Source of the DNA: Acidobacteriota bacterium | Lineage (GTDB): Bacteria > Acidobacteriota > Terriglobia > Acidiferrales > UBA7541 | Direction: 5' to 3' | DNA: 64,000 nucleotides | NCBI GenBank assembly: GCA_003223215.1 | Contig: QHYH01000112.1 | Span: forward strand, 1 to 64,000 | Shown: one piece after another, positions 15,223 to 32,972 of the stretch | How positions within the stretch are numbered: position 1 is the first letter of the stretch | Layout: each line of letters opens with the position of its first letter | Made by a program: the position numbers and the translations under genes | Notes under the pieces: model-generated | What the model was told of the DNA's origin: nothing | Seen by the model: the letters and a program-made list of their open reading frames with translations, nothing else | Databases searched by the model: none

Positions 15223-15260
15223 GGACCCACCGGCCTCTGAAAGTGGGTTCTCTTTTTTTT
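15223..15260 (+). terminator. Rho-independent terminator just upstream of galE
   Basis: GGACCCAC (15223-15230) pairs with GTGGGTTC (15243-15250) over eight base pairs including one G-T, with a 12-base loop, followed by TCTTTTTTTT (15251-15260). It ends 12 bases before the galE ATG, so it lies in the galE leader and could act as an attenuator. Confidence 0.75.
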
Positions 15261-15272
15261 CGGACAAAGAAA

Positions 15273-16307
15273 ATGCGAGTCCTGGTTACGGGCGGCGCGG
15301 GCTACATCGGAAGCCATACGGCGAAGTTTCTAGCGCAGGCGGGAATTGAACCCGTCGTGTTGGATAACCTAAGCGCAGGGCATCTATGGGCAGTGCGTTG
15401 GGGTCCCTTCGTGCAGGGGGACCTGGAGGATATCGACCTGTTGCGGGAGGTCATGAGGGCCTACCAAATTCAAGCGGTTATGCATTTCGCGGCGCACGCC
15501 TACGTCGGCGAATCCATGCTCCACCCTCGGAAGTACTTTCGGAACAACGTGGTGAACACGCTGAATTTGCTAGACGTCGTGGTCGAAGCGAAGGTCCAGC
15601 ACTTTATCTTCTCCTCCACCTGTGCCACGTATGGGGTTCCGCAGGAAACCCCCATTCGGGAACAGCACGCTCAGGCACCGGTTAATCCTTACGGGGAAGC
15701 CAAGCTGTTCGTTGAACGAGTTCTCAACTGGTATGGCCATTGCTACGGACTCCGATGGGCGGCTTTGAGGTATTTCAATGCAGCCGGCTCAGATCCAGAG
15801 GGCCAGCTCGGTGAGCAACACGATCCGGAACCCCACCTAATACCGCAGGTGATTCGAGCCGCGACAGGTGAAACTCCGTTCGTGGAAATCTTCGGCACCG
15901 ACTATGCTACGCCAGACGGAACTGCAATCCGAGATTACACCCACGTAACAGATTTGGCCGCGGCGCACTACCTCGCTCTCACCAACATTCTTAACGGTGG
16001 GAAGAGCGCTGCTTTCAATCTTGGAACTGGAACGGGTTATTCCGTGCGCGAAGTGATTGCCGCAGTCGAGCGAAGCACTGGCTGCCCCGTTCCTGTTCGG
16101 GAGGCACAACGACGTCCCGGCGATCCTCCCTGTTTGGTGGCTGATGCCACCTGCGCCAAACAGGTTCTTCATTGGCGCCCGAGCCACTCGTCGCTCGATG
16201 AAATTGTTGGAACTGCCTGGCAATGGCGTGCGACGCGGTCGCGTGTCCCCGCGTTAGTGTGCCCAATGCCAATTCATAGAAAGAAATCGGAAGAGGCATG
16301 GACCTAG
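15273..16307 (+). CDS. galE: UDP-glucose 4-epimerase
   Basis: Interconverts UDP-glucose and UDP-galactose. The protein of 344 residues begins MRVLVTGGAGYIGSH, the NAD-binding glycine motif GxxGxxG. The catalytic Tyr140 and Lys144 lie in YGEAK, and STCATYG supplies the active-site Ser/Thr. The length is normal for GalE (about 340). An upstream in-frame GTG at 15243 lies inside the terminator hairpin and is unlikely as a start. The 3' end overlaps the receptor gene by 10 bases, suggesting coupled expression of sugar-nucleotide supply and an outer-membrane receptor. Confidence 0.95.
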   Translation: MRVLVTGGAGYIGSHTAKFLAQAGIEPVVLDNLSAGHLWAVRWGPFVQGDLEDIDLLREVMRAYQIQAVMHFAAHAYVGESMLHPRKYFRNNVVNTLNLLDVVVEAKVQHFIFSSTCATYGVPQETPIREQHAQAPVNPYGEAKLFVERVLNWYGHCYGLRWAALRYFNAAGSDPEGQLGEQHDPEPHLIPQVIRAATGETPFVEIFGTDYATPDGTAIRDYTHVTDLAAAHYLALTNILNGGKSAAFNLGTGTGYSVREVIAAVERSTGCPVPVREAQRRPGDPPCLVADATCAKQVLHWRPSHSSLDEIVGTAWQWRATRSRVPALVCPMPIHRKKSEEAWT

Positions 16308-18943
16308 TGAAAAGGTTTAGTACGAAGGCAAACAAAACCGCTGCGGGAGGACCCTGGTTTGCACGGCGCGCGTTTCTTTCAGTCTTCATCTGGGCATTTC
16401 CCTTGTTAGCCCAGGACGGCATCAGCCTGAGAGGTAAGGTCCAAGGAACAGGTGGAACGCAGCTCGGCGGCGCAAAGGCAACTCTGGTTAACGAAGAAAC
16501 GCAGGCAAAACAAGAAACCATCACTGCAGAAGACGGCAGCTTCGCCTTCGCACAAGTTGCGCCGGGTGACTATCTTCTCCGTGTCGAAGCAAAGGGTTTT
16601 GAGCCTTATCGTGCCAGCATTCAACTAGGAACTGACGAGCCCGCCTCGTTGAAGATCAGACTGAAATTGCAGACCGTGGAAGAAGAACTGATCGTGAGAC
16701 CCGATACAAGCGACGACCGTCTATCTCCCGAAAGCAATACGCAGTCAATGAAAGTGGATGAAACCTTTTTCAGTGGACTCCCGCTGGCAGTGGACTACCT
16801 CCTGCCGTTCATCGAGACATTTACCTACCCCGGAGCACGAGGCAGCGAAGGAACCTCAATTGTTGTTGATGGTATCGAGGGCGGAGAACTCGACATGCCA
16901 ACCAGCGCCATCCGAACCGTGAAAATCAATCGCAATCCATATTCTGCGGAGTTTCAACATCCCGGAGCGGGAAGAGCGGAAATCACGACAAAACACGGAC
17001 ACAAGCGCCGCTATTACGGCAGCATGGCTTTTTTCGCCAGGAATTCCGTCTTCGATGCGCGAAACGCCTTTGCCCATGCGACGCCGGATTTAAATCGCCG
17101 CTTTGTGGAGGGTAGCTTGGCTGGGCCACTGCCCGGTAACTATGGCCACTTTTTTGTTGCGGGCGACCGTTTGACGAACGATCAGAGCACCGTTGTGAAT
17201 GCCCTAAACACGGTCGCCCTGACGGGCCCAGTCAACATAAATGTGCCTGTGCCGCAGCGGCGGGACCATCTATTCGCTCGGGCGCAATGGTCGTTAACGG
17301 AGATGCAAACTCTTTCTTTGAGTTACACTTTCACCGATCATTCAAGTACGAACAACGGAGTCGGGGCACTAAGCCTACCCGAACAAGGAGCCAGCGCTGT
17401 CCGGCACACGCATCGCGTGCAATTGATCGACAGTGCGGCCTTTTCACCGCAACTGCGGAACGAAATCATTCTGGTTTTCAAGGACCAGACGTCACGGTCC
17501 GGGAGCCAAGCCGACGGGCCGGAAATCCTTGTAAACGGTGTTTTCGTCGGCGGGCCATCCCAATCCTTTGATCGCAAGGAGAGGCGCGCGTTTGATGTGC
17601 AGGATACCGCTACTTACATCCGGGGAAGACACAGCTTTCTTTTTGGCGCCACGCTCGGGAATGAGTGGTCGAACGTTTTCGAAGCGGCAAACTTCGGAGG
17701 AACGTTTGAGTTCAGCAGTCTTGACCAGTACAGGAATGTTGTTCAGAACCAGGTGGGGAGCCCAGATTTGTTCCAAGTGAATCAAGGCGACCCTAGGGTG
17801 TCTTACCTCGAGCAGCAAATTAGCGGATTTGCACAGGACACGTTGCGAGCGCTCCCAAACCTTAGCCTTACGCTCGGGTTGCGCTACGACTGGCAACAGA
17901 CGCTAGACAGCCGCAAAAATTTTGCGCCCCGGCTCGCTGTTGCATTCACGCCTGGCAAGAGAAGGAGAACGGTTCTGCGTGGCGGCGCCGGAATCTTCTA
18001 TGACAATTTGCCACGGTCGGACACCGAGGATGCCTTGCTTTTGGATGGCATGCGCGTCCGCGAGATTGACATTTCATACCCGTCGTATCCTGACCCATTC
18101 TTGGGAGGACAAGTAACGTCTCCGCCGCCGAGCATCACGCGCGTGGCGACCGTCGCCCGATCTCCCTACTTGATACAGGCAAGTGCCGCAGTCGAAGAAG
18201 AGATTTCGAGAGGAACCTGGCTCTCGCTGGACTATTCGTTTCTGCATGGCGCTCGCCTCTTCCGGCTTGTCGACGTCAATGCTCCGGTACCGTCTGCGTT
18301 GGGGCTGCGCCCAGATCCAAACTTTTCAAACATTGCGGAGGTGCAATCGACGGCATTCCTTCGCGGACATGCTCTGACCCTGACCTTTCGCGGAGGATTG
18401 GGAAAGCGCTTTCGAGGCTACGCGCAATATGTCTTTTCCAAGTACACCAACGACGTATCGAGTAGCGGGCCAGGCACCTTTTTGTTTCCCGCCGACAACT
18501 ATGACTTGCGGCCGGAGATAGGTCCGGCTGACTTTGACCGCAGGCATCGCCTCAACTTCGCAGGAACGGTGCAACTGCCATTCGGTCTCCGCGCGGGATC
18601 GATTTTCTCGGCTGCCAGTGGCGCTCCCTTCAATGTCATCACCGGGTCGGATCCCTTTGGCGACACCATTACGCGGCCGCCTGGAGTAACCAGAAACACA
18701 GGCCGCGGCCCGGCCAACGTGCAATTCGACGTGCGCGTCACAAAGGTGTTCAGCCTCCAGCGCAGGGTCGGGGCCGAACGAAGTTCGAGACGGAGCATGG
18801 AATTGAGTGTGGACGCATTCAACTTCATCAATCACACGAACGTCAGCAACATCGTCGGAGTGGTGAGTTCCCCGCTCTTCGGTCAAGCCGATGCGGCGGG
18901 CCCCGCGAGAACGATCCAACTTTCAGTGAAATACAGTTTTTGA
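16298..18943 (+). CDS. Oar-like TonB-dependent receptor with carboxypeptidase-regulatory domain
   Basis: 881 residues. Signal sequence at about 20-40 (RRAFLSVFIWAFPLLAQ), then a carboxypeptidase-regulatory-like beta domain (SLRGKVQGTGGTQLGGAKATL, FAFAQVAPGDYLLRVEAKGF), a plug-like part (IVVDGIEGGELDMP, IRTVKINRNPYSAEF), and a long beta-barrel ending in the aromatic signature QLSVKYSF. This is the acidobacterial Oar-like layout, usually of unknown substrate and often carbohydrate-related. At 881 residues it is shorter than the commonest 1000-1200-residue members. Confidence 0.88.
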   Translation: MDLVKRFSTKANKTAAGGPWFARRAFLSVFIWAFPLLAQDGISLRGKVQGTGGTQLGGAKATLVNEETQAKQETITAEDGSFAFAQVAPGDYLLRVEAKGFEPYRASIQLGTDEPASLKIRLKLQTVEEELIVRPDTSDDRLSPESNTQSMKVDETFFSGLPLAVDYLLPFIETFTYPGARGSEGTSIVVDGIEGGELDMPTSAIRTVKINRNPYSAEFQHPGAGRAEITTKHGHKRRYYGSMAFFARNSVFDARNAFAHATPDLNRRFVEGSLAGPLPGNYGHFFVAGDRLTNDQSTVVNALNTVALTGPVNINVPVPQRRDHLFARAQWSLTEMQTLSLSYTFTDHSSTNNGVGALSLPEQGASAVRHTHRVQLIDSAAFSPQLRNEIILVFKDQTSRSGSQADGPEILVNGVFVGGPSQSFDRKERRAFDVQDTATYIRGRHSFLFGATLGNEWSNVFEAANFGGTFEFSSLDQYRNVVQNQVGSPDLFQVNQGDPRVSYLEQQISGFAQDTLRALPNLSLTLGLRYDWQQTLDSRKNFAPRLAVAFTPGKRRRTVLRGGAGIFYDNLPRSDTEDALLLDGMRVREIDISYPSYPDPFLGGQVTSPPPSITRVATVARSPYLIQASAAVEEEISRGTWLSLDYSFLHGARLFRLVDVNAPVPSALGLRPDPNFSNIAEVQSTAFLRGHALTLTFRGGLGKRFRGYAQYVFSKYTNDVSSSGPGTFLFPADNYDLRPEIGPADFDRRHRLNFAGTVQLPFGLRAGSIFSAASGAPFNVITGSDPFGDTITRPPGVTRNTGRGPANVQFDVRVTKVFSLQRRVGAERSSRRSMELSVDAFNFINHTNVSNIVGVVSSPLFGQADAAGPARTIQLSVKYSF

Positions 18944-19264
18944 ATTCGCAAGGGAGCGCTTTTCAGAGAAATTTGGACATGCTGCAAGCTTCGGCCTTTA
19001 GCACGCGAATGACCACACCGCGGCGTTGATGTGCGTTTCTCAATTTCAATCACAGGTGTTAAGGATGAACCGGACAGCCTCTTCGAACAAATTTAGATTG
19101 TGCGACCATTCGCCTCGCCATGGGGCTCGACTTTCCTCGACGGACGGAACGGCCGGGGCAGAGAATCATGCAAGAAGATTATTCGCTCAACAAGGCTTCC
19201 AGCCGACGGTCCCGGATAGCCGTTGTTTTGTCGAACTATGGGCTAGTTCAAATGGAGCGCGGAT
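18944..19264. other. Intergenic leader of the seven-gene cluster
   Basis: No convincing gene. A frame from 19120 has IAVVLSNYGLVQMERG, faintly like the start of a glycosyltransferase, but it overlaps the next gene and is not called. GGAG precedes the ATG at 19265 with six-base spacing. Confidence 0.4.
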
Positions 19265-21832
19265 ATGTCCGTGAGAATAATTCCGATCAGCGCTCCTGCC
19301 GATGTTCCAGTTTCCGAGCCGGAGCTTGTTCTGGACCTGGTTTCTCCTTCGAAAACAGTCTGCGACGGTTCACGCGTGGTTTTGGGCGGTAAGTTTCTAT
19401 GGGCAGGCCAGGAAAAGCTCTTTGTCCGGGGCGTAACCTACGGGACATTTCGGCCGGGCATAGAGGGCAGCGCATTCCCTTCTCCGAGAGTGGTGGAACA
19501 GGATTTCTCGCTGATGTCTACAAACGGCGTGAATGCCGTCCGCACGTACACAGCCCCGCCACGCTGGCTTCTGGACATTGCCCATCGATGCAACCTGCGC
19601 GTCATGGTTGGGCTGCAAGGGGAACGCCACTATACGTTTCTGCATGAGAAAAGAACAGTTCGCGAGATCAGAGAGCAGGTTAGAGCGGGAGCTCGAGCGT
19701 GCGCGGGCCATCCCGCTGTTCTCGGATACCTTGTTGCCAACGAGATTCCCGCATCTGTGGTGCGCTGGCACGGAGCCTATGCCACTGAAGGTTATCTGAA
19801 GGAGTTATGGAACGAGGTGAAGGAACAGGACCCAAAAGCTCTCGTTTCCTATGCAAACTATCCCTCGACGGAATACCTGGATTTGTCTTTCCTCGATTTG
19901 TTTTGCTTCAACGTTTTCCTGCAGTCGCAGGACAACTACGAAGCCTATCTCGCGCGCCTGCAGAACCTGGCTGGCAATCGCCCGCTACTCATAACAGAAA
20001 TCGGGCTTGACAGCCGGAGAAATGGTGAGAAAGCTCAGGCCAATTGCTTAGACTGGCAAATACGAAAAGCCTTCGCCGCGGGCTGCGCCGGAGCATTTGT
20101 CTACGCTTGGACCGACGAATGGTTCAGAGGTGGCGAGGATGTCGATGACTGGGATTTCGGTCTGACGACACGGAATCGCGAGCCGAAACCGGCGCTCGGT
20201 GTGGTTCGAAAAGCGTTCGAAGAAGTTCCATTTCCTCGGAATTGGGCGTGGCCGAGAATATCCGTTGTGGTTTGCACATTTAACGGAAGTCGGACCATTC
20301 GAGACTGCTTGGAAGGAATCGGGAAACTGCGCTATCCCGACTACGAAACCATCGTAATCGATGATGGTTCAACCGACGGCGTCGGTGATATTGCCGCCGA
20401 GTACGGTGTACGCTTGATCCGCACAGAAAACCAAGGCCTGAGCGTGGCCCGGAATCTGGGATGGCAATCCGCAGCAGGAGAGATCGTCGCCTACATTGAT
20501 GACGACGCCCGCCCCGACCGGGATTGGCTGACATTTTTAGCCGCCGCATTCCTCAAGACCGACTATGCAGGTGTGGGGGGACCCAACATTCCAATCCAAG
20601 ACGACGGAGAGACAGCGAGTTGTGTCGCTGGATCTCCGGGCGGACCGGCCCATGTGCTCCTTTCCGATTGCGAAGCAGAGCACATTCCAGGTTGCAACAT
20701 GGCTTTCCGCAGAAGCTGGCTGGATGCCATCAACGGATTTGATCCGGAATTCCGGCAAGCCGGTGACGACGTGGATATTTGCTGGAGAACGCGAGAAAGA
20801 GGAGGAAAGCTGGGGTTCAGTCCGGCAGCCATGGTCTGGCATCACTACCGCCGGACCGTACGGGCGTACTGGAAACAGCAGATGGGTTATGGCCAGGCCG
20901 AGGCCATGCTCGAGAAAAAATGGCCGGAAAAATACAACTCCGGTGGCTATGCGACGTGGGCGGGACGCATATATGTAAATGGGACAATCCAGGCGCTCTC
21001 GTTATCCAGTGGACGGATTTATCAGGGAACCTGGGGAACAGCAGGTTACGCGCGGCTGTACCAGCCCGGCCCGAGTGTTCTGAGCACACTTCCGCTGACC
21101 CACGAGTGGCAGCTCACGAACCTTGTGTTGGCCGCCCTCTGTGCCGTCGGCATCGTTTGGCGACCGCTGTTGAGCGCTCTACCAGTGGCATGCGTTACCC
21201 TCGTATTGTCGCTGGTCTCGGCAATAGGTGCGGCGCTGAAGGTTCGCCTTCCGGCGTCGGGGAGGAGTCGCTTCACTCGGCTCCGTCTCCGCGCTCTTTT
21301 GTCCATGCTTCACCTCTTGCAGCCTCTGGCTCGTCTATGGAGTCGCCTAGCCTATTCCCTGACGGCTAGGAAGATTCGCCGTTTCCCAACGCTCTCATTT
21401 CCCTGGCCGAGGATGTTCCAGTTCTGGAGTGAAGAATGGGTGGATGCTACCGAGCTGCTGCTGTCATTAGAATCTGTGCTGCGGTCAAGTGGGGCGGTCG
21501 TGCGTCGAGGCGGCGACTACGACAGTTGGGATCTGGAAATACGGGGCGGGTTGTTTGGGGGCGTACGGGTTCGTACGGTCTCGGAGAACTACGGGCCTCG
21601 CAAGCACATCGTGAGGCTTTGTTCTCGGCCATGGTTCTCCATCTCCGGCGCGGGGATGACACTTCTGCTGGTGATTGCCTGCGTTGGAGCGGCATTCGAC
21701 GGGTCGGGATACGCAGCTGCCATCCTCGGCACGTTGGGCGCGCTGTTCGGAGCGATCACATTTCGGAGCGGGGCTGTGGCGGTTAGCGCGATCCATCGCG
21801 CGCTCATCAAGTTGGACTTCGAATGTATATGA
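19265..21832 (+). CDS. Glycosidase-like / family 2 glycosyltransferase fusion, membrane-anchored
   Basis: 855 residues in three parts. Residues about 25-325 form a TIM-barrel glycoside-hydrolase-like domain (GH2/GH5-like): VRGVTYGTFRP, NAVRTYTAPP, Glu160 in VANEIP (acid/base position) and Glu245 in ITEIGLDS (nucleophile position). Residues about 330-590 are a GT2 domain (ISVVVCTFNG, ETIVIDDGSTDG, AYIDDDARPD, DDVDICWR). The C-terminal part has two hydrophobic segments (about 625-655 and 795-835) that could anchor it in the membrane. It could build and remodel one glycan. The 3' end overlaps the ABC exporter by 10 bases. Confidence 0.87.
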   Translation: MSVRIIPISAPADVPVSEPELVLDLVSPSKTVCDGSRVVLGGKFLWAGQEKLFVRGVTYGTFRPGIEGSAFPSPRVVEQDFSLMSTNGVNAVRTYTAPPRWLLDIAHRCNLRVMVGLQGERHYTFLHEKRTVREIREQVRAGARACAGHPAVLGYLVANEIPASVVRWHGAYATEGYLKELWNEVKEQDPKALVSYANYPSTEYLDLSFLDLFCFNVFLQSQDNYEAYLARLQNLAGNRPLLITEIGLDSRRNGEKAQANCLDWQIRKAFAAGCAGAFVYAWTDEWFRGGEDVDDWDFGLTTRNREPKPALGVVRKAFEEVPFPRNWAWPRISVVVCTFNGSRTIRDCLEGIGKLRYPDYETIVIDDGSTDGVGDIAAEYGVRLIRTENQGLSVARNLGWQSAAGEIVAYIDDDARPDRDWLTFLAAAFLKTDYAGVGGPNIPIQDDGETASCVAGSPGGPAHVLLSDCEAEHIPGCNMAFRRSWLDAINGFDPEFRQAGDDVDICWRTRERGGKLGFSPAAMVWHHYRRTVRAYWKQQMGYGQAEAMLEKKWPEKYNSGGYATWAGRIYVNGTIQALSLSSGRIYQGTWGTAGYARLYQPGPSVLSTLPLTHEWQLTNLVLAALCAVGIVWRPLLSALPVACVTLVLSLVSAIGAALKVRLPASGRSRFTRLRLRALLSMLHLLQPLARLWSRLAYSLTARKIRRFPTLSFPWPRMFQFWSEEWVDATELLLSLESVLRSSGAVVRRGGDYDSWDLEIRGGLFGGVRVRTVSENYGPRKHIVRLCSRPWFSISGAGMTLLLVIACVGAAFDGSGYAAAILGTLGALFGAITFRSGAVAVSAIHRALIKLDFECI

Positions 21833-23601
21833 CAATTCCTTGGAAGACCGGCCCGAATCGCGATCTGGCACTCTACGGACGACTGTTCCTGTGGGCCCGA
21901 CCCTACTGGCCGCACCTTGCCGGTGTTTTCTTGCTCAGCTTACTGGCGACTCCCCTGGCATTACTCGTTCCTTTGCCGCTTAAGATAGCTCTGGATAGCG
22001 GGCTGGGTTCCAAGCCCCTTCCTCATTTGTTTAGCCTTTTCGTGCCAGCCGGATTTAGGCTCTCTCCGTCCTCAGCGTTGCTTTTTGCCGTCGGCTTGCT
22101 GATCGCTGTGACGGTTCTCGCACAGATTCAGGCACTGGCCGTAGCACTCCTGAAGACGTACACCGGCGAAAAGCTTCTCCTCGACTTCCGGTCTGAAATT
22201 TTTCGACAAATGCAGCGGCTCTCGCTTTCTTACCATGATGTCAAAGGGATCGGCGAATCGCTGTATGGCGTTCAGTACGACGCCGCGGCAGTTCAAACCA
22301 TCGCGGTCGAGCACTTGATCCCTCTCATCAACTCTGCGTTTACTTTGCTCGGAATGCTGTACATCACTGCCAAAATCGATTGGCAACTGGCCTTGGTGGC
22401 TCTGCTGATCTCGCCAGTTCTTTTCCTGATTTCAAAATTCTACCGGCGAGGCCTGCGCCGTGGGTCGCGTGAAGTGAAAGCGCTTGAGAAATCAGCAATG
22501 GGAGTTGTGCAGGAAGTGCTTGGCGCACTGCGCGTAGTGAAGGCATTTGGAAGAGAGGAAGACGAGAGACATCGTTTTGTTCGCCATAGCTTTGACGGCA
22601 TGCGCGCCCGCCTGAGGCTGGCCTTCGCCGAGGGAAAGTTCAACTCTTTGGTTGGGCTAACCACCGCGGCAGGAACGGGGACGGTATTGCTTGTGGGATT
22701 CCGCCAAGTGCAGTCAGGCGTGATCACTCTGGGTGATCTCTTCCTGATGATGGGATATGTGGCCCAGCTTTACGAGCCCTTAAAGACCATGGGTAAGAAA
22801 TCGGCCGCTCTGCAGTCGCAACTGGCCAGCGTTGAAAGGGCTTTCGCTCTACTCGATGAAATTCCTGAAGTGGAGGAAAAACCGCATCCCTATCGCCTGG
22901 ACCGGGCAACCGGAAAGCTCGCATTCCAAAATGTGTCCTTCGCGTACCGGCAGAGCCTGCCAGCACTGGATCGCGTGTCATTTTACGTGGATTCGGGAAT
23001 GCGCGTGGGCATCGTCGGACCGACGGGTGCCGGCAAGACTACGTTAATGAATCTGCTGACCCGTTTCTACGATCCCACGGATGGAAAAATCTTGCTTGAT
23101 GGTGTGGATCTGCGGGACTACAAATTGACCGATCTGCGCAACCAGTTTGCCATCGTCCTCCAGGAGTCCGTCTTGTTTTCCACGAGCGTTGCTCAAAACA
23201 TTGCTTATGCCCGGCCCAGCGCGAGCGAAACGGAAATCGTAGCCGCGGCAAAGGCCGCAAGCGCTCACGAATTCATCTCGCAACTTCCCGAAGGTTATCG
23301 GACGCTCGTTGGTGAACGCGGGATGCGCCTCTCCGGAGGCGAGCGTCAACGCATTTCCCTCGCTCGCGCTTTCCTGAAAGATGCGCCGATATTGATTCTC
23401 GACGAGCCAACCAGCGCCGTGGATATCAGAACAGAAGCGGCCATTTTAGAAGCCCTGGAGCGCCTCATGGAAGGCCGGACCACATTCTTGATTACGCACC
23501 GCCACAGTGCTTTGAAGCAATGCGATGTCATCGTGAGAATCGAAAAGGGACAGCTTGCGGCGTTTGAGCCGAGCGCTCGGCGTGAGACGGTGTGCAGATA
23601 G
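21823..23601 (+). CDS. MsbA-like ABC exporter (fused permease-ATPase)
   Basis: 592 residues. A six-helix permease domain fills residues about 25-320 and an ATPase domain the rest: Walker A GPTGAGKTT at about 399-407, signature LSGGERQRISLARA, Walker B ILILDEPTSAVD and the switch His in ITHRHS. Homodimeric exporters of this build move lipids, glycolipids, peptides or drugs outward. Lying between a glycosyltransferase and biosynthetic ligase/kinase genes, it probably exports their product. The ATG overlaps the preceding gene and the next ATG follows 12 bases after the stop. Confidence 0.93.
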   Translation: MYMTIPWKTGPNRDLALYGRLFLWARPYWPHLAGVFLLSLLATPLALLVPLPLKIALDSGLGSKPLPHLFSLFVPAGFRLSPSSALLFAVGLLIAVTVLAQIQALAVALLKTYTGEKLLLDFRSEIFRQMQRLSLSYHDVKGIGESLYGVQYDAAAVQTIAVEHLIPLINSAFTLLGMLYITAKIDWQLALVALLISPVLFLISKFYRRGLRRGSREVKALEKSAMGVVQEVLGALRVVKAFGREEDERHRFVRHSFDGMRARLRLAFAEGKFNSLVGLTTAAGTGTVLLVGFRQVQSGVITLGDLFLMMGYVAQLYEPLKTMGKKSAALQSQLASVERAFALLDEIPEVEEKPHPYRLDRATGKLAFQNVSFAYRQSLPALDRVSFYVDSGMRVGIVGPTGAGKTTLMNLLTRFYDPTDGKILLDGVDLRDYKLTDLRNQFAIVLQESVLFSTSVAQNIAYARPSASETEIVAAAKAASAHEFISQLPEGYRTLVGERGMRLSGGERQRISLARAFLKDAPILILDEPTSAVDIRTEAAILEALERLMEGRTTFLITHRHSALKQCDVIVRIEKGQLAAFEPSARRETVCR

Positions 23602-23613
23602 GAAGGCTAGACG

Positions 23614-24480
23614 ATGAACAAAGTGCGTATCGGATTCCTGCTCCCACACTACTCCTGCCACAGCAGAAGCTTCATGCCAATCGTCGTGCGGATGCTCGCA
23701 GAATCCGGCGCAGTCGTCGACGTCATACACCCGCTGAACGAGATGCGCGATCTATCAAAAGTCTCGATCGAGCATGACCTGTATGTGTTGCGCCACACCA
23801 GCGGGCTCTCCCTCAGCTTGGCAGGCGCGCTTCATGAACTGGGCGCCGTCATGGTGAATCCGTATCCGGTGTCCGCCGCGTTACGCGACAAGGTCATCGC
23901 CTCACGAATCCTGCAAGCCACCGGCGTGCCTACGCCTGACACATACCTTGCCTCTCACCCCGATCAGTTGCTCCCGCTGCTGGACTCGGGTCCGCTGGTC
24001 ATCAAGCCGTATCAGGGATCCGGCGGCCACCATGTTCGCATCGTACGGACCGGTGCCGAGCTCGCGGGCACGGATTGCGGCCGCGAGCCGGTGTTCGCCC
24101 AGCGTTACCACAATAATGACGGCCGGGATCGCAAGATTTACGCGATCGGCGGACAACTCTTTGGCGTGAAGAAGGTATTTCCGCGCCGAACCGAAGAAGA
24201 AAAACAGGGGGAGTTATTCATGCTCTCGCCCGAGTTACGTGAGATTACCTTGCAGTGCGGCCGCGCGTTCGGCATTGATCTCTACGGCGTGGACATCATT
24301 GAAAGTGAGGGAACGCCATACGTTGTGGACATGTGCAGCATCCCTGGTTTCAAGGGTGTTCCGGACGCGCCGCGGCTGCTGGCGCAGTACTTCTACGCCG
24401 CGGCGGAGCGCGCCGCCCGAGGAGAGCCTCTGCCACAAACGCCGGCCTTCGGCACTGCGGCGAGCCATGCCCATGTCTAA
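23614..24480 (+). CDS. ATP-grasp ligase (RimK/glutathione-synthetase-like)
   Basis: 288 residues. The N-terminal pre-ATP-grasp domain is short (MNKVRIGFLLPHYSCHS). The ATP-grasp fold follows with ASRILQATGVPTPDTYLA, the ATP-binding VIKPYQGSGGHHVRIV and the metal-binding-like C-terminal VVDMCSIPGFKGVP. A canonical member has Glu-x-Asn in this last position; here the corresponding stretch is ...DMCSIPG, so the Mg site may be altered. Family enzymes join a carboxylate to an amine or thiol through an acyl-phosphate. The substrate is unknown. It belongs to the seven-gene run. Confidence 0.85.
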   Translation: MNKVRIGFLLPHYSCHSRSFMPIVVRMLAESGAVVDVIHPLNEMRDLSKVSIEHDLYVLRHTSGLSLSLAGALHELGAVMVNPYPVSAALRDKVIASRILQATGVPTPDTYLASHPDQLLPLLDSGPLVIKPYQGSGGHHVRIVRTGAELAGTDCGREPVFAQRYHNNDGRDRKIYAIGGQLFGVKKVFPRRTEEEKQGELFMLSPELREITLQCGRAFGIDLYGVDIIESEGTPYVVDMCSIPGFKGVPDAPRLLAQYFYAAAERAARGEPLPQTPAFGTAASHAHV

Positions 24481-24487
24481 GGGAACG

Positions 24488-25483
24488 ATGACCGAAGTTC
24501 TGATCGAAGGCGTTCGTGAGCATCGCGCCGTCCAGGCCTGGCTTCAAGTGCAATCAGACCCTTGGGAGCCAGGCAGCCTTGAAGTTCTGCAACGGAGAAG
24601 GTACAGCACGGTTTACCGGCTCAGCCAAGCAGAACAAGATGCCGCGAGAGTCATTGCGAAGAGATGCCGGACAGCCACGGCGCGTATCGAATATACGATT
24701 TACAAAACGATACTGCCGCTTACCGGGCTGCCTGCATTGCACTGCTACGGAGTAGTCGAAGAGTCAGAGGGGGAGTTCTGCTGGCTTTTCCTGGAAGATG
24801 CTGCCGGGGTCAGGTATTCGCCTCAGCTTTCCCAGCATCGCGAGCTTGCGGCCTGCTGGTTGGCGAAAACACAATTAGCTGCTGCATCGACCGGGCTCGA
24901 GGCCTGCCTCCCGGCCCGCGAACTCGATCATTATCTGGGATTGCTGCGCGGCAGCCGGAATACGTTGCTGTATCACCTGGCGGGCAGTGCATTGCCGGTT
25001 GAGGATGGAACGGTGTTTCGCAGGGTCGCTGCACATATCGATTTGATCGAATCGCTGTGGAAAGAAATCGAAAGAATCTGTGATCTTGTGCCGCGGACAC
25101 TCGTGCATGGAGATTTTGTGAACAAGAATCTGCGCATCCGCGAGACGGCCACCTCCCCTGCTCTGTTGGTATTCGATTGGGAATTCGCTGGCTGGGGTGT
25201 GCCGGCAGCCGATCTGGCTCAGTTCACTGACCGTGCGGCCAGTCCCGACCTTAGTCTCTACTGGTCCACCTTGAACCGTGAGCATGCGGGTCTGGATTTA
25301 CGCGGCATCCAAGCTGTGGCTGCCTGCGGCAACCTCCTCCGCCTCGTCGACCAAGTGAGTTGGGCTACCACAGGACAAGAATCCGTCCCTCCCGAGCATC
25401 TGGTCAAGGCCGCTGCCCTGCTGCGATCCTATGAAGCCTCAATCGTTGGAGCACTAAACACCTTCCAAAGGAGCAGGACATGA
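24488..25483 (+). CDS. APH-fold phosphotransferase, first of three
   Basis: Aminoglycoside-phosphotransferase/choline-kinase fold, about 331 residues. The catalytic loop is LVHGDFVNKNLRI (HxDxxxxN complete) and the metal-binding segment is VFDWEFAGWG. ATP-binding Lys is probably in ARVIAKRCR. The start is uncertain: ATG at 24467, 24473 or 24488 are all in frame, and AAGGGA lies just ahead of the last, which also avoids overlap with the upstream stop. The 3' end overlaps the next kinase by four bases (ATGA). It should phosphorylate a small hydroxylated compound, sugar or amino alcohol; the target is unknown. Confidence 0.83.
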   Translation: MTEVLIEGVREHRAVQAWLQVQSDPWEPGSLEVLQRRRYSTVYRLSQAEQDAARVIAKRCRTATARIEYTIYKTILPLTGLPALHCYGVVEESEGEFCWLFLEDAAGVRYSPQLSQHRELAACWLAKTQLAAASTGLEACLPARELDHYLGLLRGSRNTLLYHLAGSALPVEDGTVFRRVAAHIDLIESLWKEIERICDLVPRTLVHGDFVNKNLRIRETATSPALLVFDWEFAGWGVPAADLAQFTDRAASPDLSLYWSTLNREHAGLDLRGIQAVAACGNLLRLVDQVSWATTGQESVPPEHLVKAAALLRSYEASIVGALNTFQRSRT

Positions 25484-26544
25484 TTGAAGGCTTGGACCAT
25501 CTGCTCGAAAGTCGAGGCCAGCCTGGCTTGGCCCAGCTGCGGGGCTTGCTGCGGGAGCTGCTTGGCGGTCACGAGGCAGAGGGCCGGTTGATAGAAGAGC
25601 AGACGCTACAACCTCGCGGCCTGCGCGTCTTCCGGCTGCGCTTCGCCATCAATGGCCACGTTCGTCAAGTAATCGTGAAGCGGCTGAGGCCGGAAATCGC
25701 TTTGCGCGGTGCATTGATAGCCGAACGCTGGTTGCCCGCAGTGGGCATGAGGGATAGCGGTCCAGCGTTGCTCGGCAGCGTGGCCGAGCCCGGCGGCAAC
25801 TGCGCCTGGCATGTTTATGACGACCTCGGGCCGTGCGAACTCGATACCAGCCGACTCGACCGCGAAAAGGTGAGCGCCGCAATCAAGCTGATTGCGCAAC
25901 TTCACCTACAGTTCGCCCGGCACCCGCTGCTGGGGGAAGTCCGGCTTCACGGTTGCGACCTGGGTATTCACTTCTACGATGCGAATGTGCGCGATGCTAC
26001 TTACGCGTTGGAAGCGTGCCAAGCCTTGCCACAGCAAACCTCGGTAGTAGCCCGTCTCTTGAAACGGCTAGACAAATTGCGGCAAGAACTGCCGCACCGC
26101 GCACGCGCGCTGGCCGCATGGGGTGGCCCTGAGACTTTGCTGCATGGCGATTTGTGGGGCATCAACGTTTTCGTTATCCCTACTCCCCGTGGGCTCCACG
26201 TGCGCCTTATTGACTGGGACCATGCCTCCGTTGGACCAGCAAGCTACGACATCTCGACCTTTCTCGTTCGTTTACCACCTCAGGAGCGGGCTTGGGTCTT
26301 GGAGGTGTACCGCGAGGAGACGGCACGAGCAGGTTGGTGTCTACCGCCTAAGCCCGTGTTGAACCTCTTGTTTGAGACCGCTGAGTATGCACGCTTGGCC
26401 AATCGTATTATCTGGCCTGCCATTGCTCTCGTGCAGGATCGAGTGCCTTGGGCCTGGGAGTCATTGGCCGAAGTCGATCAATGGTTTGAAGATCTTGCCC
26501 CGGTGCTGCCATGCGAGACCGAAATGCAAGGCGCGACACATTGA
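25480..26544 (+). CDS. APH-fold phosphotransferase, second of three
   Basis: 354 residues with a complete kinase loop LLHGDLWGINVFV (HGDxxxxN) and the metal-binding LIDWDHASVGPASYD. A central conserved Lys in RQVIVKRLRPE probably binds ATP. Only weak similarity to the first kinase is visible outside these motifs, so the three kinases are divergent family members rather than recent duplicates. It overlaps both neighbours (ATGA upstream, 34 bases downstream), showing tight co-translation. Both catalytic motifs are intact, so it is probably active. Substrate unknown. Confidence 0.83.
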   Translation: MIEGLDHLLESRGQPGLAQLRGLLRELLGGHEAEGRLIEEQTLQPRGLRVFRLRFAINGHVRQVIVKRLRPEIALRGALIAERWLPAVGMRDSGPALLGSVAEPGGNCAWHVYDDLGPCELDTSRLDREKVSAAIKLIAQLHLQFARHPLLGEVRLHGCDLGIHFYDANVRDATYALEACQALPQQTSVVARLLKRLDKLRQELPHRARALAAWGGPETLLHGDLWGINVFVIPTPRGLHVRLIDWDHASVGPASYDISTFLVRLPPQERAWVLEVYREETARAGWCLPPKPVLNLLFETAEYARLANRIIWPAIALVQDRVPWAWESLAEVDQWFEDLAPVLPCETEMQGATH

Positions 26545-27536
26545 AAACCCCGGCATCGCTGCTGCCTGATTCGCAGACTCTGACACTCCGGCTCGCGAGC
26601 GCTCTGGGACCTGATGCGGATAAACAGCGCTCCGTGCGCATCCTGAGCAGGACTCTTCCGCCATTTATGAGCACTTTCCCGAATGAGATCGTCACCTGTC
26701 AATTGCCGGATGGCCGCAAACGGCGGGTGTTCATCAAGTACCAGGCAGGCCAAAGCCATGCGTGTTACGGGCACCGCGGGGATGTTCCCTATGAAACCGA
26801 GGTCTATCGTCGCGTGCTGCACTCGCTGCCAAACTTCAAACCGAAGTGTCTGGGAGCGCATACAGACCCTCACACCGGTGACATCTCCTTATTCCTGGAA
26901 TATGTGTATCGGAGCGTTCGTTTGAGCGACATGGTTTGGAAGCGGTTAACACGTCAACCCCGGGCGATGACCCAGGCCGCTTGCTGGATTGGGAATTTCC
27001 ACACCGTGCACGTGCACCGCATCGACGATCCCTCGTTGGCATTCTTGAGACGGTACGACGCAGAGTATTACCGCGGTTGGGCGCAACGAACTTTCGAATT
27101 CTCGCGCCCGCTGCACGGCCGCTTTCCCTGGCTCACCATACTATGCGGTGCCAATGAGTGGTTTGCGCCTTTGCTGGCCCAGCCACAGACCGTTATTCAC
27201 GGCGAGTTCTACGCCAAGACTATCCTGGTTCGAAACGAAAACGTGTTCATGGTGGACTGGGAATCGGCTGCAATCGCCGCAGGTGAGATCGACTTGGCGG
27301 CGCTGACGGAAGGAAAGCACTGGCCCGCCGACCTTGTGCGCGAGTGCGAATGCGCTTACGTATCCGCACGCCGGCCTGAAGCAGCACCTCGAACCTTCAG
27401 ACGTACCCTCGATGCCGCAAGAATCTACCTGCATTTCCGTTGGCTCGGAGAGCGGCCCGATTGGGCCGTCCGTGAGAAAAACATCCCGCGCTACGATCAA
27501 CTTCACGCCTCAGCGAAGCGGCTTGGCCTGGTCTAG
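26511..27536 (+). CDS. APH-like protein, third of three, with altered catalytic loop
   Basis: 341 residues of APH-like fold. The catalytic loop reads VIHGEFYAKTILV: the Asp of HGD is Glu, and the metal-coordinating Asn of HxDxxxxN is Thr. HGEFY with a following Asn is a known sub-type, but here the Asn is gone. The downstream metal-binding Asp remains in FMVDWESAAI and the ATP-binding Lys may be in RVFIKYQAG. It may therefore be a weak or pseudo-enzyme with a scaffolding role. The start overlaps the second kinase by 34 bases; a later Met could be the real start. Confidence 0.75.
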   Translation: MRDRNARRDTLKTPASLLPDSQTLTLRLASALGPDADKQRSVRILSRTLPPFMSTFPNEIVTCQLPDGRKRRVFIKYQAGQSHACYGHRGDVPYETEVYRRVLHSLPNFKPKCLGAHTDPHTGDISLFLEYVYRSVRLSDMVWKRLTRQPRAMTQAACWIGNFHTVHVHRIDDPSLAFLRRYDAEYYRGWAQRTFEFSRPLHGRFPWLTILCGANEWFAPLLAQPQTVIHGEFYAKTILVRNENVFMVDWESAAIAAGEIDLAALTEGKHWPADLVRECECAYVSARRPEAAPRTFRRTLDAARIYLHFRWLGERPDWAVREKNIPRYDQLHASAKRLGLV

Positions 27537-27545
27537 AGTCTAGCA

Positions 27546-28700
27546 ATGGCGACCGTTGTCATTTCACCATACGACGTCGCGAATTATCCTCAGGGAGGTG
27601 GACACTTCTGGGTCTATCTGCAATATGTTCTCGGCCTGCGGCTTTTGGGCCACGACGTTTATTGGCTTGAAGCTTTTCGCAGCAAGGGGCGTGAGGAACT
27701 GGAAGCCGCCGCACTCGCCACGTTCCAAGCACGGATGGAACAATATGGCCTGCGCGGGAAGTGCGTCCTCTACCGCACGCAGAGCAAAGAGCCTTCACCC
27801 GAACCGCCGGAAGAGTACCTCAACATGACCCGTGGCGAGGCTGAAGCGATCTTTGAGCGCGCGGATCTGCTGCTGAATTTTCACTATGCTATCAGTCCCG
27901 CGCTGCTTCCATACTTCCAGCGTACAGCCCTGGTGGACATCGATCCCGGCCTTTTGCAGTTTTGGATGACCCGTGGACAGCTGCGCGTGCCCGACCATAA
28001 TTTTTACTTCACCATTGGCGAGGGCGTTGGCCGATCCGGTGAGAAGATTGCAACCGGCGGTCCCCGTTGGATTCACATCTGGCCGGCGGTTTGCCTCGAA
28101 CGCTGGCCCTACACCTTCGACCCGTGTTGCGAAGCCTTCACGACAGTCTCTACCTGGGACTCCTCCGACTGGGTTGTGGACCGCGATAAAAGCTACGAGA
28201 ACACAAAGCGGGTTGCTTTCTTGCCGTTCGCCGATCTGCCGGGTTTCACTCGTCAGCCCCTGGAGTTGGCGCTGGTTCTGCGCACGGAGCGAGACATGGA
28301 GGAGCGGAAAAAGTTGGAGAATTGTGGTTGGCGCATCCGGCACGCATGTGAAGTCGCCAGTACGCCTGAGATGTATCAGGCCTATATTCAGCGTTCGCGC
28401 GGGGAGTTCAGTTGCGCCAAGCCTTCCTATATCAAGCTACAAACGTCTTGGATCAGCGACCGCACACTCTGCTACCTAGCTAGCGGAAAACCTGCGGTCG
28501 TGCAGAATACAGGTCCCAGCTCATTCCTCCCCAACGGAGAAGGAATGTTTCGTTTCTCCTCTCTTCAGGAAGCAGCCGATGCGCTGGAAGCTGTCAACAC
28601 GAACTATCGGCGGCACAGCGAGGCTGCCCGGCAGATTGCCGAGACCTATTTCGACTCCAAGCACGTTGTGAGGGAGATCCTAAACCATGCTCTCCGTTAG
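27546..28700 (+). CDS. Glycosyltransferase-like protein (GT-B type C-terminus)
   Basis: 384 residues. The C-terminal third is like group 1 glycosyltransferases: GEFSCAKPSYIKLQTSW, RTLCYLASGKPAVVQNTGP, FRFSSLQEAADALEAV and YFDSKHVVREIL. This matches the region that binds the sugar-nucleotide donor. The N-terminal domain begins VVISPYDVANYPQGGGHFWVYLQYV, with a Gly-rich turn as in GT-B enzymes. It is the last gene of the seven-gene run, nine bases after the third kinase. Together with the GT2 fusion it suggests the cluster product is a glycoside. Donor and acceptor are unknown. Confidence 0.78.
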   Translation: MATVVISPYDVANYPQGGGHFWVYLQYVLGLRLLGHDVYWLEAFRSKGREELEAAALATFQARMEQYGLRGKCVLYRTQSKEPSPEPPEEYLNMTRGEAEAIFERADLLLNFHYAISPALLPYFQRTALVDIDPGLLQFWMTRGQLRVPDHNFYFTIGEGVGRSGEKIATGGPRWIHIWPAVCLERWPYTFDPCCEAFTTVSTWDSSDWVVDRDKSYENTKRVAFLPFADLPGFTRQPLELALVLRTERDMEERKKLENCGWRIRHACEVASTPEMYQAYIQRSRGEFSCAKPSYIKLQTSWISDRTLCYLASGKPAVVQNTGPSSFLPNGEGMFRFSSLQEAADALEAVNTNYRRHSEAARQIAETYFDSKHVVREILNHALR

Positions 28701-29867: not shown

Positions 29868-32666
29868 CTATTGGATCCGGCTGCTCAGTGCCTCGATGGC
29901 CCTTTCAATTCTTTGTTGACTCTTCCAAAAGTCTTTCCACAAGTCGCCCTTCTCCTTCAGCCGTGCAAAGATCGTATTGATGTTGAAACTTTCCGGCCGC
30001 AGGCTCGACCGCAACTCATGCGGCAACACTGGCGCGGAAACCGGCGCTTTGGGAAACGCTCGCACCGAATACGCCGCAGCCAGCGGCCGGCCCATGGCAT
30101 TTTGCTGCACGTCAATAAGTACGCGCCCCGCAGGCCTTTTCGCGACAGACCGCTCGTTGGTCACTAAATTGGGATGCTGCGCCGTCACGGTGCGTGCGAT
30201 GATTTCGCCAAAGGTCCGCAACTGCTCATACGTGTAAACCGGTTCCACCGGTATGAAGATGTGGAATCCCGTTGCGCCGGAAGTTTTCAGAAAACTCACG
30301 ATCCCCAATTCTTCGAGCTTTTCCTGTAGCGCTCGAGCGATGGTGACGACCACCGAAAACTCCGTGCCGTCGGAAGGATCGAGGTCGAAGAAAAAATAGT
30401 CGGGATGATCGAGGTCATCGAGGCGGCTGGACCACGGATTGTGGTCGATGCAGCCGAGTCCGGTCAAAAACAAAAGAGAGGCGCGATCGTCCGCCGTCGC
30501 GTAGTGAATTTGTTTGCCGCGCTCCTCGGATTCGATCGGCACAGTTTTAAGCCATTCCGGCACGCCTTCGCGCAAATCTTTTTGAAAAAACGCCTGTCCC
30601 TGGATACCGTCGGGATAGCGGCGCAAAACCAGTGCGCGATCCTTTAGCAACGGAAGGATGTAATCCGCAATACGGTAGTAGTAAGCCAGCAGGTCGCGTT
30701 TCCTGTATCCGGACTCCGGAAAATAAACTTTGTTCAGGTTGCTGAACCGCAGCCGTTTCCCGTCCAGCTCAATCGTGATCGTTTCCGCGCGCCCGTTGAA
30801 CAATTCCTGTTCGATTTGCGCCGTGCCGCTGATCACGCGGCCCACGACTTCCGGCGCGCGCACCACGGCCGCTGGCCCAGCCGCAACTTCGCTCTCCCAT
30901 TTGCAGTCCTCTGGTTTCACGTCCTCGCGCAGCCCAATGAAAACCGGGTGGCGCAAGTACTTTTCTTGCGTCCATCCGCTATATTTCACGCGAGCCACCA
31001 CCGCCGGCTTTACCCAGGACGGCTTTTCGTTGGTTTCGGGCACGCTTTCAAACGGGCACGTAGACGCCGCCAATTCCTTCCACTTGCTGTTCAATTCGGC
31101 GTGCTTCTTGGCGTCAAACCCGCTCCCCACATGCCCAATGAAGCGCAACTTCTTCCCTTCGTACAGGCCCAATAACAACGACCCGAAGGGAATCGCCTCC
31201 GTGCGCGCTTCGGTCCAGCCGCCGACGACCGCGTCAAGCGTCTGGTTCACTTTCAGCTTCGCCCAATTCGCGCTGCGGTCGCCCACATAAGCGCTGTCCG
31301 CGCGCTTCGCGACAATTCCTTCCAGTCCGCTCTCTTTGGCCAGCTCGAACAGCTCTTTTCCGTGCTCCAACTGATGGTCGGAATAACGAAACCGCTGCGA
31401 TGCATGCAGCAGCCGCTCCAGCAATTGCTTGCGTTCCAGCAGCGGCGCGCCCCTCAGGTCATATCCGTCGCAATAGAGAAGGTCGAACGCAAAATAAACC
31501 ACCGGTGTCTCGCGCAACTGCTTTTCGCCCGGCGTGCGCACGTGCATGCGCTCCTGCAAGCGCTGGAAATCGCTGTGGCCGCGCGCATCGAGCGCCACAA
31601 TCTCGCCATCGAGAATCGCTTGGCTCGCGGCAAAAACTTTAGGAAGCGTAGCCAATTCCGGATACCGCGAAGTGATGTCCACATTGTTGCGCGAGCGCAG
31701 CGTCAACGCCCCGCCTTCAATCCACGCGAGGGCGCGCACGCCATCCCACTTAATCTCAAAAAGCCAGTAGGGATCGGAAAACGGACGCTCGGCGAGCGTC
31801 GCCAGCATTGGTGCGATGCGCGACGGCATCGCGCCTTTGCGTGCGCCCTCGACCCCCGCGGCACGGATTGGAACAGGGCTGCGTTTCGGCGGCGCCTCCT
31901 CGGCAATTTCTTTGATGGTCCGACCGCTCAGAACCGACCCGTCATGCTCTTCGATGTTCCACTTGGGATCTTCGGCGGCGTCCTTGTGCTTGATGAGCAG
32001 CCACTCATTGCCCTTTTCGCTGCGCTTCAGCTTGACGAGCACGAAGCTGCCCCGCAGCTTCTCCCCGTTCAAGCTGAACTTGATCTCCCCGCGTTGCAGT
32101 TGCTGTAATGCGTCGGGCGTCGGCCCGCGGAGCTTACCGGGGTCGTCTTCCACAACAAACGAGCCGCGGTCCCACACCATCACGCTTCCCGCGCCGTAGT
32201 TGCCTTCAGGAATTTTCCCCTCGAAGCCGCCGTATTCCAGTGGATGATCCTCGGTCTGCACCGCCAAGCGCTTGTCCGCATGGCACTGGGACGGCCCCTT
32301 CGGCACCGCCCACGACTTCAGCGTCCCGTCAATCGCCAGCCGGAAATCGTAGTGCAGCCGCGTCGCGGAGTGCTTCTGCACTACGAACGTACTTCCGTAC
32401 TCTTCCGTTGGACGGGCCTGCAGCCGCAGCTTGGGCATCGGCTTCGGCAGGCGCGTGCCAGTGCGGTCACTCCGCCTGCCCTGAGTAGAGTCAGAGGGAG
32501 CGGCGCGAGGAATCTCTTTTACCTCCGCTTTTGTAGCCGCGGGTTTGTCCCCCCGTTCCCGGCGAGGCTCGAGACCGCGACCCTCCGCGTCGCCCCGCTC
32601 CGCTCCTGCAGGCTCGGGCGTGCGGTCAAACTTCCTCTTCCGCCTATACTCTTCCAACTTACTCAT
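29868..32666 (-). CDS. ligD: Multifunctional DNA ligase D (non-homologous end joining)
   Basis: 932 residues with all three LigD domains. The phosphoesterase domain (about 95-235) has KHSATRLHYDFRL and WAVPKGPS. The ligase domain (about 280-600) has the nucleotidyl-accepting Lys in EIKWDGVRALAW. The primase-polymerase domain (about 640-920) has FFFDLDPSD, giving the catalytic Asp pair, and SGATGFHIFIP. The order PE-Lig-Pol is that of the Pseudomonas type rather than the mycobacterial order. It processes and seals Ku-bound double-strand breaks. Ku lies 1.3 kb away on the opposite strand, so the pair is linked but not in an operon. The N-terminal 90 residues are a charged extension. Confidence 0.96.
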   Translation of the reverse strand: MSKLEEYRRKRKFDRTPEPAGAERGDAEGRGLEPRRERGDKPAATKAEVKEIPRAAPSDSTQGRRSDRTGTRLPKPMPKLRLQARPTEEYGSTFVVQKHSATRLHYDFRLAIDGTLKSWAVPKGPSQCHADKRLAVQTEDHPLEYGGFEGKIPEGNYGAGSVMVWDRGSFVVEDDPGKLRGPTPDALQQLQRGEIKFSLNGEKLRGSFVLVKLKRSEKGNEWLLIKHKDAAEDPKWNIEEHDGSVLSGRTIKEIAEEAPPKRSPVPIRAAGVEGARKGAMPSRIAPMLATLAERPFSDPYWLFEIKWDGVRALAWIEGGALTLRSRNNVDITSRYPELATLPKVFAASQAILDGEIVALDARGHSDFQRLQERMHVRTPGEKQLRETPVVYFAFDLLYCDGYDLRGAPLLERKQLLERLLHASQRFRYSDHQLEHGKELFELAKESGLEGIVAKRADSAYVGDRSANWAKLKVNQTLDAVVGGWTEARTEAIPFGSLLLGLYEGKKLRFIGHVGSGFDAKKHAELNSKWKELAASTCPFESVPETNEKPSWVKPAVVARVKYSGWTQEKYLRHPVFIGLREDVKPEDCKWESEVAAGPAAVVRAPEVVGRVISGTAQIEQELFNGRAETITIELDGKRLRFSNLNKVYFPESGYRKRDLLAYYYRIADYILPLLKDRALVLRRYPDGIQGQAFFQKDLREGVPEWLKTVPIESEERGKQIHYATADDRASLLFLTGLGCIDHNPWSSRLDDLDHPDYFFFDLDPSDGTEFSVVVTIARALQEKLEELGIVSFLKTSGATGFHIFIPVEPVYTYEQLRTFGEIIARTVTAQHPNLVTNERSVAKRPAGRVLIDVQQNAMGRPLAAAYSVRAFPKAPVSAPVLPHELRSSLRPESFNINTIFARLKEKGDLWKDFWKSQQRIERAIEALSSRIQ

Positions 32667-32727
32667 AGATTCGTTCGTCTTCGCTTTTTGTCTGCCTTAG
32701 ACCTATGCTCTTTGTATACTCCTGCTT

Positions 32728-32972
32728 ATGCGCTTCGCCTACCAATACCGGCTGTACTCCAAGCAAGCCCAGGTTCAGTTTCTCGAGAACCAGCTCCACG
32801 AGGCTTGCGAGCTCTACAACGCCGCCTTTCAGGAACGGCGCGACGCTTGGAACGTTTGCCGCAAGAGCATCCACTACTACGACCAGGCCAAGCAGTTGAA
32901 GCCGAAGGGTTGCTCGGACTGGCCAACTTCTCCCGCTGCCAGATGTGCTCCGCCGGCCAGGCGACGGAGTGA
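32728..32972 (+). pseudogene. Truncated IS605-type TnpB remnant
   Basis: Begins MRFAYQYRLYSKQAQVQFLE and continues LYNAAFQERRDAWNVCRKSI, the N-terminal segment of TnpB/OrfB proteins. After about 55 residues the frame breaks; a second frame continues GLLGLANFSRCQMC and stops at 32972. The RuvC-like core and zinc ribbon are absent, so it cannot be an active nuclease. The remaining sequence up to 33210 shows no protein similarity. Confidence 0.72.

Follow-up and report, generated by a model that had tools for sequence, protein, structure and literature searches.

Proteins with the APH/choline-kinase fold that have given up residues of the kinase active site are already known from several systems. 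The lineage described here is a new variant among them. Its member APH3 is encoded by the last of three consecutive APH-like genes (APH1, APH2 and APH3, positions 24488-27536) in a 64,000-nucleotide stretch from an Acidobacteriota bacterium (contig QHYH01000112.1, positions 1 to 64,000; called the window below), whose genome is 8.8 Mb. APH3 is conserved, has an altered catalytic loop, and may form a kinase-pseudokinase pair with APH1. Little work seems to have been done on pseudokinases of this small-molecule branch. A review devoted to pseudokinases of bacteria, in its available part, treats serine-threonine kinase families, does not use the term APH, and brings in an aminoglycoside kinase only in a remark on drug targets. 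The open-access literature searched for such clusters, or for APH-type glycan kinases, contained no description of this kind of cluster. A paper on the genus Angelobacter (PMC9723581), to which the window might perhaps belong, nowhere uses the words phosphotransferase, glycosyltransferase or kinase.

The bacterial spore kinase (BSK) proteins (YtaA/CotI, CotS, YutH) resemble APH3 in fold and in loss of the catalytic Asp: five have lost this residue and are predicted pseudokinases, and some associate with glycosyltransferase genes (PMC2860764). However, these are spore-coat proteins of spore formers, and the predicted pseudokinases among them have lost further motifs, whereas APH3 keeps the Lys, the Glu and the metal-binding Asp. 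The fusion to an active partner found among APH3 relatives is not reported for BSKs in the available text of that paper (PMC2860764). The CotS/BSK family model (TIGR02906) was not among the matches of the window APH3 at E<=1, and the APH3 relative at locus L055 scored 15.2 bits with it (cut-off 172.7).

RosX, a LanX-family protein of a class V lanthipeptide cluster, likewise has a predicted APH-like fold without the catalytic residues of a kinase, and it too shares its biosynthetic cluster with a genuine kinase, RosK. It is a cyclase that binds RosD and hardly the RosK-RosY complex (PMC12291118). The ATP Lys and metal Asp are absent in RosX but retained in APH3 as K76 and D249, which rules out membership among the LanX/RosX-type cyclases. 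Class V LanK proteins (LxmK, NF038156) were also ruled out, APH3 scoring 14.1 bits against a cut-off of 315. Replacement of the metal-binding Asn is compatible with kinase activity in this fold, since Ser occupies the position in MTRK (PMC4702295) and Gln in LxmK (PMC12291118), both of them kinases. The APH3 model superposes on each with Z 20.4 (MTRK 2olc, LxmK 9dk3); unlike APH3, both keep the catalytic Asp.

The closest mechanistic analogue of the proposed pair of APH3 and APH1 is found in a different kinase family, Fam20. Fam20A is a paralogous pseudokinase that binds ATP, and it forms a complex with the kinase Fam20C and activates it (PMC4421793). A key acidic residue has become Gln in Fam20A; it is, however, a Fam20-specific Glu and not the Asp of the catalytic loop, and these are secreted animal proteins.

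Three APH-fold genes and the loop of the third

A sequence-only reading of the window had proposed three APH-fold proteins in a row, and three open reading frames (ORFs) lie exactly in that interval, from the first ATG at 24488 to the end of the last stop codon at 27536, each overlapping its successor:

24488..25483, + strand: APH1, complete APH-fold kinase (VIAK, HGDFVNKN, DWE; PF01636 51.3 bits)
25480..26544, + strand: APH2, complete APH-fold kinase (VIVK, HGDLWGIN, DWD; PF01636 36.1 bits)
26511..27536, + strand: APH3, APH fold with a changed catalytic loop (K76, E95, Asp replaced by E232, Asn replaced by T237, D249)
27198..27221, + strand: codons of the HGEFYAKT loop of APH3, residues 230-237 (H230, G231; numbered from the start codon at 26511)

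The cut-off of PF01636 is 23.2 bits. The window APH3 matched zero Pfam families at E<=1. It was assigned to the fold because its relatives at L055 and L057 match PF01636 (53.0 and 58.7 bits) and its AlphaFold2 model superposes on APH structures. The model, built from a 20-row alignment, has a mean predicted local distance difference test score (pLDDT) of 87.2 and a predicted template-modelling score of 0.87. It predicts a bilobal APH/choline-kinase fold and superposes best on the corramycin phosphotransferase 8agy (Z 22.3, root-mean-square deviation 3.1 A over 286 residues, 17% identity over aligned residues). Sequence searches of the PDB gave no match for the window APH3 alone at E<=5 and none for APH1 and APH2 at E<=0.1. 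A profile of the 20-row APH3 alignment found 37 PDB sequences at E<=1, the best being capreomycin phosphotransferase 7f0a (E 2.2e-5).

The loops are as the earlier reading gave them. APH1 and APH2 contain complete HxDxxxxN catalytic loops; APH3 reads HGEFYAKT with the downstream DWE intact, and alignment of the key residues confirms that it retains the Lys and the metal Asp but has other residues in place of the catalytic Asp and the Asn. K76, E95 and D249 are taken by us, from general kinase motifs, to be the ATP lysine, the alpha-C Glu and the metal Asp; the Lys of APH1 and APH2 was taken directly from their sequences. Across 20 APH3 rows K76, E95, H230, G231, D249, W250 and E251 are invariant, among others. 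The nucleotide lysine, the salt-bridge Glu and the metal-binding Asp have therefore been kept while the catalytic Asp was dropped, and in the window clade the second metal ligand, Asn, is missing as well.

By sequence, the three proteins belong to three separate lineages. In a 41-row maximum-likelihood tree rooted at the midpoint, APH1 comprises 13 rows (99/97), APH2 7 rows (100/100) and APH3 21 rows (98/97). Rows of L070, L033, L034, L053 and L064 and the masked APH1 of L058 were left out of this tree, and the program flagged long branches, including those of L065, L066 and the APH1 of L054. Loci L121-L123 and L153-L156 stand outside the tree and were assigned by best phmmer score. Two placings are weak, those of L153 (~70 bits) and L065 (long branch).

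The catalytic loop was readable in 24 of 26 APH1 stretches, 11 of 11 APH2 and 28 of 32 APH3, the other six being unreadable because of contig ends, frame breaks or runs of N. Every readable APH1 and APH2 loop has the D...N pattern. The APH3 loops consist of eight E...T (the window clade), eight E...N, ten Q...N, one D...N (L066) and one S...Q (L153). The catalytic Asp is thus replaced in 27 of 28 (16 Glu, 10 Gln, 1 Ser) as against 0 of 35 in APH1 and APH2 together, counted as sequences rather than independent events (L061 and L122, for example, look like near copies). HGEFYAKT is identical in all eight readable loops of the close clade, on eight contigs, and a local accident or sequencing error is thereby ruled out. 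All eight E...T loci contain APH2, and the ATP-grasp gene is seen in seven; the contig of the eighth (L029) begins inside APH2. The change of Asn to Thr occurs in these 8 of 28 loops, solely in clusters with APH2.

By parsimony, the simplest history would be a single change of Asp to Glu at the root of APH3, since both main branches of APH3 contain HGE and HGD is confined to the nested L066. Glu would then have become Gln in one branch and Asp again in L066, and Asn would have become Thr solely on the stem of the window clade. The two loop changes emphasized in the sequence-only reading thus differ in weight: loss of the Asp is lineage-wide, and the Asn to Thr change is a later one that is not decisive alone.

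Outside the lineage, APH-family proteins keep the Asp wherever the loop could be read by eye; several rows were unreadable, including three from the genome of the window itself (L002, L006 and L007). The exception is L121:9812-10942 in genome G472, another APH-domain protein (PF01636 44.9 bits) that follows an APH1-APH3 fusion and appears to read HGSYIPQH, with neither Asp nor Asn. Loss of the Asp is therefore not unique to the APH3 lineage.

Selection on APH3 is purifying. The median pairwise ratio of nonsynonymous to synonymous substitution (dN/dS) is 0.148 (7 loci, 21 pairs, range 0.108-0.251), computed without the broken copy of L033 and the partial one of L034. Medians for the other genes are 0.170 for APH2 (7 loci), 0.228 for APH1 (6), 0.121 for the ATP-grasp gene (6) and 0.105 for the glycosyltransferase GT1 (6). 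The constraint on APH3 is therefore like that on the complete kinases and somewhat weaker than that on certain other cluster genes. That it is a functionless, decaying relic is barely credible. The changed loop would fit such a history, as would L033, where APH3 is in two pieces with ~41 residues missing; the low dN/dS rules out a decaying gene, and as 184 of 341 positions do not vary among 7 loci and the loop is unchanged in all readable close relatives, APH3 does not look like one.

APH1 as the probable partner of APH3

An APH3-lineage gene is present at 29 loci, of which 24 have a readable flank (L029, L061, L063, L065 and L066 end too soon). APH1 lies upstream of APH3 in 22 of the 24, either directly or, in the window clade, with APH2 between them. 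The 22 include L053, where APH1 is cut by the contig end, and L058, where its loop is masked.

In two genomes the partners are fused. A single 700-residue ORF of G472 consists of APH1 (HGDLKPKN) followed by APH3 (HGQYFGRN), and one of 644 residues in G407 has the same arrangement, with HADFKPKN in the APH1 half. Both come from contigs of draft genomes, and the chains are 46% identical over 659 columns. The junctions are nearly equal in length (33 and 32 residues between matching Trp and Asn), both alternative frames are closed at that point, and APH3 is out of frame with APH1 in six unfused loci. Two independent sequencing slips at the junction are therefore unlikely. APH2 and APH3 are separable, since L155 has APH2 without APH3; of the three proteins, it is the first and third that go together. 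In G188, L153:1-5233 carries an ABC transporter fragment, APH1, an APH3 relative whose loop reads HGSYGAGQ, GT1, another APH3 relative containing a run of N, and a further APH-like fragment, the fifth.

It is roughly an even call, judging by loops, neighbours and fusions, that APH3 is a conserved APH-fold pseudokinase paired with APH1. It probably binds ATP, and the loop changes suggest that it has lost activity. Conserved loss of a canonical residue, the mark of a pseudokinase, is seen in every readable loop of the lineage except that of L066, and in the window clade it extends to the Asn in all eight loops. In such a pair, APH3 would bind ATP and Mg and dock on APH1, activating it or positioning its substrate. 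Catalysis would come from APH1, with APH3 as an ATP-bound, catalytically crippled partner. The earlier suggestion of two working kinases with a regulatory or scaffold pseudokinase is thus the best-supported one, given the pairing and the fusions, although its loss of activity is presumed from the loop. A more specific form is offered tentatively and is rather doubtful: APH1 and APH3 may be obligate partners in a heterodimeric kinase for small molecules or glycans. This would be a counterpart of Fam20C/Fam20A in bacterial biosynthesis, with APH3 still binding ATP but no longer transferring phosphate. The Asp would have been lost first, and the further changes, to Gln or Ser and of Asn to Thr, would have come later in clusters where the active partner was retained.

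Several observations weigh against a pseudokinase pair. Of all replacements Glu departs least from Asp, and it might itself act as the base. L066, nested within the APH3 lineage, reads HGD...N, and L052 and L067, with full flanks, have no APH1 neighbour and keep HGE...N; some members of the lineage may therefore be active kinases. Since MTRK and LxmK are kinases, Thr at the Asn site is not decisive. The APH1 half of the G407 fusion lacks part of the N-lobe. The broken copy in L033 may mean that APH3 is dispensable, or the L033 assembly may be faulty. Enzymes that act one after another in a pathway would likewise be expected to be neighbours or fused, and a relative in G188 (L063:2-1774) is fused to something else, a GT1-like domain preceding the APH3 relative (HGEYFGKN) in one 591-residue frame that runs off the contig start.

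Much of this would suit an atypical but active APH3, with Glu as the base and Thr as a metal ligand, the three proteins phosphorylating different positions or successive intermediates. We consider this unlikely. The conservative nature of Glu, the invariant Lys, alpha-C Glu and metal Asp, the nested HGD member, the unpaired HGE...N members, the two kinases without the Asn and the glycosyltransferase fusion all favour it. The ten relatives with Gln and the one with Ser at the Asp site have no carboxylate base there, however; 22 of the 24 testable members adjoin APH1, and the APH-family proteins read outside the lineage keep their Asp with the one exception. Nothing positive was found for three successive phosphorylations as such. 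APH3 could instead be another kind of catalyst, which uses ATP for a different transfer or its Glu as an acid/base without phosphoryl transfer. There are precedents in RosX, whose cyclization needs Glu220, His269 and Asp272 on a predicted APH/LxmK-like fold (PMC12291118), and in CalN, a nitrile-forming pseudokinase as mentioned in PMC13060819. But RosX is without any of the ATP and metal residues, most of which APH3 keeps, and Gln or Ser at the same site in relatives argues against a Glu chemistry common to the lineage. This alternative is therefore quite improbable.

The APH3 lineage presents a natural series in one gene context: HGD, HGE, HGQ and HGS at the Asp site; Asn, Thr and Gln at the metal site; kinase and altered partner separate or fused. 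The transition from metabolic kinase to partner protein is thus directly testable with small proteins.

The surrounding operon and its relatives

The APH genes belong to a nine-gene run on the + strand (15243-28700) in which genes overlap or nearly abut, with one exception, a gap of about 320 bases 5' of the gene for a glycoside hydrolase-glycosyltransferase (GH-GT2) fusion. The remaining features are:

15243..16307, + strand: GalE-like NAD-dependent epimerase, probable first operon gene (PF01370 E 3.2e-56, PF16363)
16298..18943, + strand: outer-membrane beta-barrel / TonB-receptor-like protein (PF25183 231 bits, PF13620 57 bits)
18944..19264, no strand: gap 5' of the GH-GT2 gene, containing conserved blocks that may be regulatory (four-locus alignment)
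19265..21832, + strand: fusion of GH (clan A-like TIM barrel) and GT2 (PF00535 100 bits, PF02836 35.8 bits)
21823..23601, + strand: MsbA-type ATP-binding cassette (ABC) exporter (PF00664, PF00005; TIGR02203 420.6 bits, below the cut-off of 602)
23614..24480, + strand: RimK-type ATP-grasp ligase (PF08443 51.8 bits)
27546..28700, + strand: probable GT-B glycosyltransferase, GT1 (weak PF13524, 19.9 bits, cut-off 25)

The epimerase gene overlaps the next by 10 bases and has a homologue adjoining the cluster in L057, L060 and L121; homologues of the beta-barrel protein are found in many related clusters. For the ATP-grasp protein, the closest solved structure by sequence is 7qys, a probable alpha-L-glutamate ligase (E 4.7e-12). 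Two of eight scanned GT1 homologues exceed the PF13524 cut-off, and the GT1 fold model, from a five-row alignment, has pLDDT 32. In a 40-row alignment of the GH-GT2 protein, in which L031 and L070 are the same place entered twice, the expected Asn-Glu pair of the GH part is kept in 34 of the 35 rows that have a residue there (5 gaps); for the nucleophile Glu the count is 37 of 38 (2 gaps). In the GT2 part D412, D414, D501 and D502 are found in 40/40 rows, and D366 in 25/40, with Asn in the other 15. These residues are presumed to be catalytic from general motifs, and the fusion recalls what we take to be a similar arrangement in GH17-GT2 glucan synthases such as NdvB. In the window and three relatives, the gap at 18944-19264 shows conserved non-coding blocks between indels, which may be a promoter or operator. 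No conserved small ORF that might encode a precursor of a ribosomally synthesized and post-translationally modified peptide was evident in the alignment of that gap, the one region inspected for it.

The cluster probably builds and exports a sugar-containing molecule. APH1, and the complete APH2, would phosphorylate an intermediate assembled by the GH-GT2 fusion and GT1, an amino-acid-like group would be attached by the ATP-grasp enzyme, and the ABC transporter would export the product. As far as family names indicate, then, the substrate may be a glycan or glycoconjugate that receives an amino acid and is exported, and the cluster stands as a candidate source of a new glycoconjugate exported by soil Acidobacteriota. 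An anti-phage defence system was ruled out: neither the three APH proteins nor the ATP-grasp protein matched any PADLOC family at E<=0.01.

The order ATP-grasp-APH1-APH2-APH3-GT1, or the portion of it present on the contig, recurs in L029-L034, L068 and L069; L070, the same place as L031, was excluded from this count. Three genomes, G422 (L055/L069), G449 (L054/L068) and G412 (L061/L070), listed in that order, each hold two cluster versions, one with HGE...T and the other with HGE...N or HGQ...N. The G412 pair may reflect contamination, because L061 resembles a near copy of L122 of G473. With the window's own genome counted, the GH-GT2 protein (E<=1e-60) is found in 27 of 396 phylum genomes searched, and matches of the window APH3 (E<=0.001) in 17 of the 396 and in 13 of 61 near relatives; many of the phylum matches are short and involve APH kinases that have HRD loops and do not belong to the lineage. 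At 24 GH-GT2 loci outside the window's genome, G188 and G226, an APH-like gene occurs in 0 of 24 and an ABC gene above 300 bits in 18 of 24. The GH-GT2 fusion is thus scattered across Acidobacteriota, often beside an MsbA-type exporter and mostly without nearby kinases. Plasmids held no relatives of the window APH3 or of L065, and for L067 one weak match, a Rhodococcus phosphotransferase with HGDYRPDN beside unrelated genes.

Downstream of the operon are a DUF72 gene and then the non-homologous end-joining genes LigD (- strand) and Ku (+ strand), within 29868-34803. Between LigD and Ku, the first 42 residues of an ORF at 32728-33198 weakly match PF12323 (HTH_OrfB_IS605, 15.9 bits, cut-off 21), and this ORF is perhaps a TnpB-like relic.

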